Assembly (NCBI GenBank): GCA_902794535.1
Contig: CADBHQ010000002.1
Coordinates: 1 to 64,000, forward strand
Length of the DNA: 64,000 bases
Direction: 5' to 3'
Origin: Fibrobacter succinogenes
GTDB taxonomy: Bacteria > Fibrobacterota > Fibrobacteria > Fibrobacterales > Fibrobacteraceae
Shown here: positions 18,673 to 52,915 of the stretch, in pieces
Numbering within the stretch: position 1 is the stretch's first letter
Layout: each line of letters starts with the position of its first letter
Made by a program: the position numbers and the translations under genes
Notes under the pieces: model-generated
The model's input: only the letters and a program-made list of their open reading frames with translations
What the model was told of the DNA's origin: nothing
The model's database searches: none

Positions 18673-19185
18673 AGCGTGTAAAATATACTAATTCGGAATT
18701 CAAAATTTGGAATTCAATTTTTGCCGTGTGGCAACATTACATTTTTTTTGTTAGAAATAGAGCCGAACGGTCTGTAAAGGGGTAGGTATCCCCCTGGTGC
18801 AAGCCATGGCAATCGCCAAACTATGGCCGCCGCGATGTTTTTACCCGCTCACTACCACGGAAAAACCCGTGAATCGTTCGCTTGCTAAAAACATTCGCTC
18901 TGGCCATCAGCAATTTCAAGCGCCATGTCTTTTACCACCCCCTCGCCTAAGGGCTTTGCCCTTAAAAACCCAATGAAATTCCGACAATCCAAACGGGCTA
19001 TGTCCGCGGGCTTTTCCGACCAGGCGCAGGCGCCGCGCCGACTACGAGATTTGTAACGAACGAGCCCCGGTCCCCTGAACGTATTCAGGGCCCGGCTAGC
19101 GAGTGAGTGCAAATCCCGTAAGGAGGCGCCCGTCCCAACGCCATACCGATTTGTCATGAAATTACGACATTAGTTGAAATTTAAA

Positions 19186-19272: not shown

Positions 19273-19290
19273 TTGGCACGCATCTTGCTT
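19273..19290 (+). promoter_or_regulatory. Sigma-54 type -24/-12 promoter of the sigma factor gene
   Basis: TTGGCACGCATCTTGCTT matches the sigma-54 consensus TTGGCACG-N4-TTGCT, with exactly 10 nt between the GG (19275-19276) and GC (19287-19288) pairs. A start site near 19300 would leave a leader of about 25 nt that includes the AAGG ribosome site of the sigma factor. The match is visible; dependence on RpoN is inferred. Confidence 0.7.
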
Positions 19291-19325
19291 AAAAAAATAC
19301 GATATTAAGGATGTAAGGTTATAAA

Positions 19326-20138
19326 ATGCATATTGATTCTACTGATACTACTCTAAAACGTTACCTCGAAGATATTAGACGCACAGCTCCCCTCTCTCGT
19401 GAAGAAGAGCAGATTCTGTTCCAGAAAGCTAAAGAAGGCGACAAAATCGCCCGTAAGAAGCTTATTTCTGCAAACATGCGTTTCGTTTTGAAAGTTGCAA
19501 TTCAATACCGTGGTTGCCCGATTCCGCTGCCGGACTTGGTGAGCGAAGGCGCTATGGGTCTTGTACGTGCTATCGAATCCTTTGAACATACTCGTGGTCT
19601 TAAGTTCATTAGTTACGGCGTGTGGTGGATTAAGGCTTACATTACCCGTGCCATTAACGAACAAGGTAACTTGATTCGCTTGCCGGCTAACCAGCACTTG
19701 CGCGTGCGTAAGGCTTTGCACGAACAGAGCCGCGGTAAGGAAATCAACGAAGAAATTCGCGAACTTATCCAGATCGGTCAGCGCGGTGTTTCGTTCGACA
19801 GCCCGCTCAAGGCAGACTCTAAGGCAACCTATGCCGAAGTGCTCCCCGATGGCACCGCAACGAACCCGGAAAACGAATCTGAAATCCAGAGCGTCGAAGC
19901 TTTGGCTCGTGACCTCATGGAACAGCTTCCGGAACGCGAAGCTAAGGTGATTACCGGTATCTTCGGTATCAACCAAGAAGCTCCGCAGACTCTTCGCGAA
20001 GTGGGCGAATCCATGAACATCTCTCACGAACGTGTCCGTCAGTTGCGCGACCAGGCTCTCCGCCGTATCCGCAAGTACAACAGCAAGGAATTCCTGCAGG
20101 ACAAGAAAGACGCATTCCTCGCAGCGATTAATAAGTAG
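19326..20138 (+). CDS. Sigma-70 family RNA polymerase sigma factor
   Basis: A 270-residue sigma factor with regions 1.2, 2, 3 and 4 but without a long N-terminal region 1.1, similar in size to the short primary-like sigma factors of Bacteroidota. Region 2 reads SANMRFVLKVAIQYRG...LPDLVSEGAMGL and FISYGVWWIKAYITRAINEQ; region 4 has TLREVGESMNISHERVRQLRDQALRRIRK, a clear helix-turn-helix. It stands alone, with the sigma-54-like element just upstream and a shared terminator downstream. A second sigma-70 gene lies at 52001-52852, so which is housekeeping is unclear. Confidence 0.88.
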   Translation: MHIDSTDTTLKRYLEDIRRTAPLSREEEQILFQKAKEGDKIARKKLISANMRFVLKVAIQYRGCPIPLPDLVSEGAMGLVRAIESFEHTRGLKFISYGVWWIKAYITRAINEQGNLIRLPANQHLRVRKALHEQSRGKEINEEIRELIQIGQRGVSFDSPLKADSKATYAEVLPDGTATNPENESEIQSVEALARDLMEQLPEREAKVITGIFGINQEAPQTLREVGESMNISHERVRQLRDQALRRIRKYNSKEFLQDKKDAFLAAINK

Positions 20139-50285: not shown

Positions 50286-52001
50286 CTAATACTGGTTCAA
50301 GTACTTCGTGTAATCGCACAGTTTGAGGCCTGGCGGGAGCGCAGACTTGTCAAAGCGGACCATACGGACTTCGGCCGGTTTACCCACCACGCGGGCAAGC
50401 ATTTCAAAGTTGTCCTGCGTTTCCCATACGGCAGCATCGATAATCAGGCCGTCACCGCAGTCGGTTTCGCCAGTACTGTTGCCAATACCCGAGATTCTAG
50501 AGTTTTGCTTCAGGAGTCGAGTATAGATTTCGGGGGCAATTCCAAAATGATTCGTGGTCGAAGACGAGTCATGCACGACCACATGCACTTCGCGGAAATG
50601 ATTCAAAGAATCGAAGACAACCGTGTAAGTATGCATGTACGGGGCAATAAAGAAGGTTTCTTGCCAGACATTCTTTGCCACAGGCCTGAAGTTTCCGATA
50701 GAATACTTCTTGAAGAATTCCTTGGGCGTTGCACCATAGCGCACCACATAATGGCCAAGCATGGTCGAGAAGTCATGAACCGTAGACGGAGCCATCGTTT
50801 CGCGGAGGCTATCGACAGCACGATTCAGGTTCGCAGTCAAGCCGTCGTTCTTGTTAATCGGAGCGGGCCTTGTAATGTTCGATTCCTGAATGCGCTGCTG
50901 AATATCAGGATATTCCGGATCGATTTTCTGGATTTCCTGGAACTGCTTGCGGGCAAGGTCAAACTGGCGGCCCTTCAAATAAGCGCGGCCAAGAGCTTCC
51001 TTGAGCGGCAGGTTTTCGGGATACTTGTCGACCATGGGTTCCAAAATATCGAGGGCGGTCTGCGCACGGTCTTGCGGAGAAAGAACCACTCCGTTACCCG
51101 GGCCCGGAGGAGATTTTTCACCCAGAGTAGAAACAGCATCTCGGGCAGGAGCGTAATCCGGCATGAACGCCAGAATGCGCTGGTAAATTTTTTCGGCAGC
51201 ATCGAAATGACCCTGGTATTCATCCATGTAGCCCTGCAAAAGCAAGAGCTTGACATTCATCGGATACTGAGAAAGGGCGTATTCGACCACGGCAGCGCAA
51301 CTGTCCAACTGTCCGCTACGGTGGTAAAGGTCAGCAAGGTTTTCGTAGGCGGCAGGGACATCGCCACTCGAGAGGCTCACCACCGTCTTGAATTCATTTG
51401 CAGCCTGCAAGAATCGGCCATTTTCCATGAGGAGCTGGCCGTACCAAAGCCTAGTCTGGTACAAGGCGGGCGCACGTTCAGAGGCCACGCGAGCAAGTTC
51501 AAGAGCAGCGGCAGCATTGCCGGACTGGTAAATTTTACGGCTTTCAACGTAAGTCGACACGCCGGAACCCGGCAAGCGGGCCTGAAGCTTACCAATCAAA
51601 AGAGAAAGACGGTCCTGCTGATTATCCGAAAGCGGGCTCATTTCAAACAAAGTATTAATTTGTCCGAGAAGGGCGGGCAACAGGTCCGGATAAAGAACAA
51701 TCACGCCATCATAAATATCATAGGCCGCCTGATAAGAGCCCGAACGAGCAAGTTCTGTTGCACGGCGAAGTTCTGTTTGCACCTGCACCGGGACCTTGGC
51801 AATGTCGGCAGTCAAATCCGGGGTATCACCACGGGCAACGGTCGAACCGGCAGGCAAACCGTAAGGAATGCCGCCTACCGAAATTTTACTAGGGCCATAA
51901 ACATCATAAATACGAAAGCCCGCAAAAGTAAGCAGGGCTCCGCAACAAAGGGTCAAAAACAAGTATGCAGCCCTACGGGCTGCCCAAGACGAATACGCCA
52001 T
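50286..52001 (-). CDS. Membrane-anchored TPR protein coupled to a sigma factor gene
   Basis: Protein of 571 residues with one N-terminal transmembrane segment (AAYLFLTLCCGALLTFAGF) and an exported region of TPR repeats (about 70-380) plus a C-terminal domain of unknown type (about 400-571, including VVFDSLNHFREVHVVVHDS). The ATG overlaps the sigma factor stop by 1 nt (TAATG), so the two are translationally coupled. That suggests a link between the sigma factor and envelope assembly. No family recognised beyond TPR. Confidence 0.8.
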   Translation of the reverse strand: MAYSSWAARRAAYLFLTLCCGALLTFAGFRIYDVYGPSKISVGGIPYGLPAGSTVARGDTPDLTADIAKVPVQVQTELRRATELARSGSYQAAYDIYDGVIVLYPDLLPALLGQINTLFEMSPLSDNQQDRLSLLIGKLQARLPGSGVSTYVESRKIYQSGNAAAALELARVASERAPALYQTRLWYGQLLMENGRFLQAANEFKTVVSLSSGDVPAAYENLADLYHRSGQLDSCAAVVEYALSQYPMNVKLLLLQGYMDEYQGHFDAAEKIYQRILAFMPDYAPARDAVSTLGEKSPPGPGNGVVLSPQDRAQTALDILEPMVDKYPENLPLKEALGRAYLKGRQFDLARKQFQEIQKIDPEYPDIQQRIQESNITRPAPINKNDGLTANLNRAVDSLRETMAPSTVHDFSTMLGHYVVRYGATPKEFFKKYSIGNFRPVAKNVWQETFFIAPYMHTYTVVFDSLNHFREVHVVVHDSSSTTNHFGIAPEIYTRLLKQNSRISGIGNSTGETDCGDGLIIDAAVWETQDNFEMLARVVGKPAEVRMVRFDKSALPPGLKLCDYTKYLNQY

Positions 52002-52852
52002 TACTTTTCCAAGAAATCAGCCAGTTTTTCTTTATGTTCCTTGCTCTTTTGGAGACGACGCAAGGTTTTGTTCTTGATCTGGCGAACGCGTTCACGGCTC
52101 AGTTTCAAATCTTCACCGATATCCTTGAGCGTCGTATCTTCAACCGTATCAAGTCCGTAGAACATGCGAAGGATTTCTTCTTCGCGCTGCGGCAGGGCGG
52201 ACAAGGTTTCCTGGATGAGCTTACGGCGTTCATCCTTTTCCATGTCTTCGTCCTGGTTTCCGTCGGAACCCAAGACATCCATAAGCGTGCTGACCGTGTC
52301 ACCGTTACCGCCGACATTCGTGCTGTCGCCAATGGGGGCATCGAGCGAAATGTCCACGATTTTTTCCATGACCTCGACGATGTCCTTTTCGAACGGTGCG
52401 AATTCGTCCATGGCAATGGTACGATCGTAGTCACCGTCGTTCTGCATCAAGGCACGTTTAAAGCGGTTGACCAAAGCAAGCTTGTTGGGCGGAATTCGGA
52501 CCGCGCCCACCTGTTCAAACAGGGCTTTTTGGATAGACTGGCGAATCCACCAGACCGCATAAGAAATAAACTTGACATCCTTACCCATATCAAAGCGTTT
52601 TGCCGCCTTGAACAGGCCGATATTTCCTTCGTTAATCAAATCAAGCAGGGAAAGTCCACGCCCCTGATACTTTCTTGCGACACTCACCACAAAACGGAGG
52701 TTACCCCGAATGAGGCGTTGCAAGGCCGACTTGCGGATTTCTTCCGCCTGGTCGCTCTTGATAATCGCAAGCAGAGCCTCTTCTTCCTGAGGACTCAGGG
52801 TCGGAAACCTATTCAGATCCCTAAAATAAAGCGCTTCGTTTGCATCACTCAT
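52001..52852 (-). CDS. Second sigma-70 family RNA polymerase sigma factor
   Basis: Protein of 283 residues with regions 1.2-4 and no region 1.1: NLRFVVSVARKYQGRGLSLLDL, FISYAVWWIRQSIQKAL, then region 4 TLKDIGEDLKLSRERVRQIKNKTLRRLQK. An acidic insertion (GSDGNQDEDMEKDE) lies between regions 3 and 4. ATG at 52852 was chosen because homology starts with ALYFRDLNR. It heads a minus-strand run with two TPR genes and rlpA, unlike the solitary sigma gene at 19326. Confidence 0.88.
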   Translation of the reverse strand: MSDANEALYFRDLNRFPTLSPQEEEALLAIIKSDQAEEIRKSALQRLIRGNLRFVVSVARKYQGRGLSLLDLINEGNIGLFKAAKRFDMGKDVKFISYAVWWIRQSIQKALFEQVGAVRIPPNKLALVNRFKRALMQNDGDYDRTIAMDEFAPFEKDIVEVMEKIVDISLDAPIGDSTNVGGNGDTVSTLMDVLGSDGNQDEDMEKDERRKLIQETLSALPQREEEILRMFYGLDTVEDTTLKDIGEDLKLSRERVRQIKNKTLRRLQKSKEHKEKLADFLEK

Positions 52853-52915
52853 AGAAATACATACCTTCAATTCTTCTAAGGAAATTCCCCTTGAAGACTA
52901 TCCAAATATGTCTTT

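Follow-up and report, generated by a model that had tools for sequence, protein, structure and literature searches.

A predicted sigma-54 promoter with enhancer-like palindromes upstream of a class-specific sigma-70-family gene in Fibrobacter

We analysed a stretch of 64,000 nucleotides from Fibrobacter succinogenes (hereafter the window) that carries the gene of a sigma-70-family factor, sigma1. Comparison of its upstream region across the class Fibrobacteria indicates that sigma1 is very probably made by sigma-54 RNA polymerase from a -24/-12 element (Table 1), with a dedicated activator at upstream palindromes setting its level. In the proposed mechanism, sigma-54 RNA polymerase would transcribe sigma1 from this element with a start near 19300, while a dedicated AAA+ enhancer-binding protein would occupy GTCA-N7/8-TGAC palindromes 60–220 nt upstream, two of them in Fibrobacter and up to three in relatives. 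The bound activator would loop to the closed complex and open it, and a signal reaching the activator would be passed on to the level of sigma1 and from there to sigma1's own targets. We infer that sigma1 transcription depends on the promoter together with the palindromes, and that a downstream regulon and an activating signal are parts of the cascade. Since a near-perfect sigma-54 promoter with activator sites recurs in the class, one switch probably decides when sigma1 is produced.

Table 1. Coordinates of the sigma1 locus and of the sigma-70-family genes used for comparison
Feature	Position	Strand	Remarks
Distal enhancer-like palindrome TTGTCATGAAATTACGACAT	19151..19170	.	GTCA-N8-TGAC, one mismatch; GG 122 nt downstream
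Proximal enhancer-like palindrome AATTCATAATTGTATGACAA	19212..19231	.	GTCA-N8-TGAC, one mismatch; GG 61 nt downstream
Predicted sigma-54 (-24/-12) promoter element TTGGCACGCATCTTGCTT	19273..19290	+	GG 19275-19276, ten bases, GC 19287-19288
Predicted transcription start	19299..19301	+	~12 nt downstream of GC; from sigma-54 promoter geometry
TAAGG, ribosome-binding-like site	19314..19318	+	7 nt before ATG; read from sequence
sigma1, 270-aa sigma-70-family factor	19326..20138	+	single gene; neighbours on other strand
sigma2, second sigma-70-family factor (comparison)	52001..52870	-	canonical promoter-recognition residues
sigma3, further sigma-70-family gene	L012:1003-1926		contig C8

The earlier note had described a -24/-12 element with exact GG-N10-GC spacing in front of sigma1, and this description was borne out. 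The element agrees with the consensus TGGCAC-N5-TTGCW and is separated from the ATG by a gap of 35 nt, and transcription from sigma-54 promoters starts about 12 nt past the GC. An exact match to TGGCAC-N5-TTGCT occurs once in the whole window, at sigma1. Matches with up to two mismatches numbered 23 against 18.8 expected, which is chance level, so the weight is carried by the exact match only.

The decisive evidence for reading this block as a sigma-54 promoter is its conservation. TTGGCA and TTGCT were invariant in all 36 genus loci, that of the window included; the earlier note had named loss of the GG/GC bases in close relatives as an outcome that would speak against a sigma-54 promoter, and they were retained in these loci. 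Outside the genus, GG and GC were found at the same spacing in 9 of 9 loci of family f3 and 2 of 2 of family f5, with diverging flanks. Among the upstream regions of 81 orthologues (80 from named genomes plus the window), a set that overlaps the genus and family set and includes close relatives that are not independent, 74 carried the element, compared with 0.4% of shuffles and none of the 81 on the reverse strand. In these sequences mean pairwise identity was 0.89 in the element and 0.36 at -80 to -21. Carriers among the named genomes include F. intestinalis ATCC 43854 and several F. succinogenes assemblies, and the element was also found in class members not known as rumen fibre degraders. 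It was absent from 7 of the 80 named loci (L246, L254, L255 and L267–L270), Fibrobacter UBA1765 included, from the two genomes of family f4 and from the one f2 genome examined; rpoN is present in these f4 and f2 genomes. A sigma-54 element was seen before sigma2 in none of the nine relatives scored and before sigma3 in none of seven. These results suggest that the arrangement of a sigma-54 promoter with remote activator sites at sigma1 recurs across most of the class.

The palindromes are likely to be enhancer-like sites for a sigma-54 activator. They take the form GTCA-N8-TGAC in Fibrobacter and GTCA-N7-TGAC in genus g5 (family f3) and in f5. In the window's own group they lie at -122 and -61 from the GG, 61 nt apart, and two further loci (L048 and L049) have a perfect TTGTCA-N8-TGACAA at the position of the distal palindrome. 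When five g5 genomes were aligned, palindromes stood at exactly -211, -106 and -76 in all of them, and the sequence between them differed. Exact dyads amounted to 20 of the N7 and 10 of the N8 form, against about 0.1–0.15 of each in shuffles. Each of seven class genomes of 5–7 Mb has a single place with the paired palindrome, and likewise a single place with palindrome plus sigma-54 element; in the six of them with a located sigma1 upstream region, all but G046, this place is the sigma1 gene. A strict N8 search of Fibrobacter genomes gave little outside the sigma1 locus, with one extra site in G003 (L125) that has no obvious target. Several Fibrobacter loci have only degenerate palindromes or none, and no exact palindromes were found in four f3 genomes of genus g3, which keep the promoter. 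The palindrome, which we take to be similar to FleQ boxes, was not matched to any known activator.

The earlier note proposed looking for rpoN and sigma-54 activators in the genome, and took a lack of rpoN as a refutation; both were found there: a single rpoN (169 bits), next to an hpf-like gene and an ABC-ATPase gene resembling lptB, and seven strong activators. Across the genomes searched, rpoN was detected in 60 of 61. Taken together, base-by-base conservation in three families, the rpoN and activator genes and the enhancer-like palindromes support the earlier proposal of a probable sigma-54 promoter before a sigma-70-family gene. Genome-wide there are 15 exact TGGCAC-N5-TTGCW sites, at least nine of which lie 50–110 nt before a plausible gene start. 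The genes behind them, named from their translations, include type III glutamine synthetase, gltB, purF, PII, dapF and dnaK; glutamine synthetase, gltB and PII genes are often under sigma-54 control elsewhere. The GTCA palindrome was missing at the other exact sigma-54 sites, save for one dyad with one mismatch, and we therefore do not assign the sigma1 promoter to a nitrogen-type site.

Some of these other sites deserve mention in their own right. The exact elements L018, L020, L021, L029 and L030 precede the likely nitrogen or related genes (glutamine synthetase III, gltB, purF, PII and dapF), and several of them have TTTACA/TGTAA-type repeats upstream in place of the GTCA palindrome. An exact element lies 90 nt before a dnaK-like gene (L026, G000:C24:42093-42108) and another before an Hsp20-like ORF (L024); sigma-54 would be an unusual regulator of heat-shock genes. 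A sigma-54 activator gene (L002:979-2433), which adjoins a kinase-like gene, has immediately after it an exact sigma-54 element and the gene of a small protein that looks secreted.

No activator gene was adjacent to sigma1 in the gene neighbourhoods; only that of G045 contains one, at a distance of about 7 kb. We compared all 65 activator loci from six genomes with the seven of the window's own genome. The own activator C11 (L005:1120-2466) formed a clade with G003_L148, G044_L164 and G051_L160 (support 96/98), whose members share the recognition helix R-T-A-(L/F)-(Y/H)-N-(K/R). In this sample of six genomes plus the own, the clade was present where palindromes are present and absent where they are not. 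This distribution, being that of one of seven activators over few lineages, is a suggestive pointer to the protein that may bind the palindromes, and we give the orthologue group of C11 about an even chance of being the activator of sigma1. The C11-clade gene precedes an obg-like gene in G044 and G051, and its Fibrobacter product has a degenerate-looking receiver domain. It is only somewhat less probable that the palindromes are bound by C6, encoded beside dnaB, or by C8. In the same sample C6 has orthologues in six of the six genomes, but these include genomes where palindromes are absent. The recognition helix of C8 is kept in g5 and f4, yet f4 lacks the element, and the helix is changed in f5, where palindromes are present.

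Sigma1 comprises sigma-70 regions 1.2, 2, 3 (partial) and 4, with PF04542 and PF04545 (regions 2 and 4) above cut-off and regions 3 and 1.2 likewise. Every one of the 61 genomes searched gave a match, with identities of 93–100% in the genus and about 67–74% elsewhere in the class; other classes of the phylum gave matches of only 33–38%, which are not clear orthologues. Among family models sigma1 scored best with those of RpoS, below cut-off. An assignment to RpoS was rejected (TIGR02394, 195.1 bits against a cut-off of 378.7), sigma1 forming a separate clade in the tree, as was one to RpoD (RpoD_Cterm, 161.2 against 354 bits). The sigma1 clade is class-specific, and residues that recognise the -10 and -35 elements are changed: regions 2.4 and 4.2 have WWIKAYIT, not WWIRQAIT, and SHERVRQ, not TRERxRQ. 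Distant relatives of sigma1 occur in several class members (L342 and L343 in G044, L345 and L346 in f2, L348 and L349 in Fibrobacter), suggesting a possible expanding class-specific sigma family.

Of the three large sigma-70 factors, sigma1 shows the highest conservation; sigma2 has identities of 83–99% in the genus and 60–62% in the class, and sigma3 of 68–98% in the genus. The codon adaptation of sigma1 (0.651), calculated with dnaK, glutamine synthetase, PII and gltB as a small reference set, was the highest of 16 genes compared, suggesting that sigma1 may be strongly expressed. Because sigma2 and sigma3 also fall below the RpoD cut-off, the failure of sigma1 to reach it does not settle which factor is primary. 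Top conservation and best codon adaptation would fit sigma1 as a principal or co-principal sigma factor of Fibrobacteria, which we consider unlikely in view of its altered promoter-recognition residues beside the canonical-looking sigma2; if true, the main growth sigma factor would itself be made under sigma-54 and enhancer control. We favour sigma1 as an alternative factor and sigma2 as the primary one. By eye, a conserved TTGAC element stands in the upstream regions of sigma2 and sigma3, and after it comes a TATTTG-like or TTTTG-like one, a pattern reminiscent of Bacteroidota promoters.

Two other accounts of the conserved block have to be weighed against transcription of sigma1 mainly by sigma-54 polymerase. 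The element could be a real but minor sigma-54 promoter, with most sigma1 mRNA coming from an upstream sigma-70-type promoter and sigma-54 boosting it under some condition. The codon adaptation of sigma1 would fit this account, as would the retention of the sigma1 gene in lineages without the element and two sigma-70-like matches upstream of it, at 19174 and 19225. These matches are weak and at chance level, however, and upstream conservation is poor outside the element and the palindromes, unlike the situation at sigma2 and sigma3 with their TTGAC-type element, so that we regard a merely auxiliary role of the element as improbable. Far less probable still is that the block only mimics a sigma-54 element and serves as a sigma-70-family promoter or as a repressor site. 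In favour of this account, good conservation in the genus extends to TTTACA just upstream of the element and to GCGATATT downstream, but TTTACA reads TTTGTT in five genus loci in which GG and GC are unchanged, and the positions conserved in f3 and f5 are exactly the sigma-54 ones. In addition, no pair of hexamers at a spacing of 16–18 covers the block, and enhancer-like palindromes accompany it. A sigma-54 promoter setting the level of sigma1 remains the reading that we prefer.

The literature searched contained no paper on sigma-54 in Fibrobacter. The predicted cascade would offer an entry point to transcription control in this genus, and prompts one to ask what the most conserved sigma-70 factor of these genomes is for. 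In the Rrp2-RpoN-RpoS system of Borrelia burgdorferi, a sigma-70-family gene is transcribed from a -24/-12 promoter under the control of an NtrC-family activator (PMC11109971, PMC2940757). The likeness in Fibrobacter, a predicted -24/-12 promoter at a sigma-70-family gene, is one of sequence; sigma1 differs in that it scores below the cut-off for the RpoS family and is confined to a single class. A single NtrC-family activator, as in the Rrp2 cascade, has C11 as its candidate at sigma1, by phylogenetic pattern only, and the Fibrobacter genome encodes several activators where Borrelia has one. Rrp2 reportedly activates rpoS without an enhancer, a finding attributed to Blevins 2009; sigma1, in contrast, has conserved palindromic enhancer-like sites. 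These sites, at regular helical spacing (30 and 105 nt in g5) and 60–220 nt upstream of a -24/-12 promoter, resemble an architecture of the NtrC/FleQ type. RpoN also acts above FliA in the flagellar hierarchies of Geobacter, Vibrio and Campylobacter, and in Geobacter this is the top-scoring RpoN promoter (PMC2725144). Sigma1 resembles FliA in its predicted RpoN-type promoter upstream of a sigma-70-family gene, but it is not FliA-like by family search, and its gene stands alone, not in a flagellar operon. The Fibrobacter case brings a different, class-specific sigma factor, a conserved array of putative enhancers confined to a single place in the genome of each relative tested, and C11 as candidate activator. 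Sigma1 would thus provide a third setting of a cascade from sigma-54 to a sigma-70-family factor, after Borrelia RpoS and flagellar FliA, and in another phylum.
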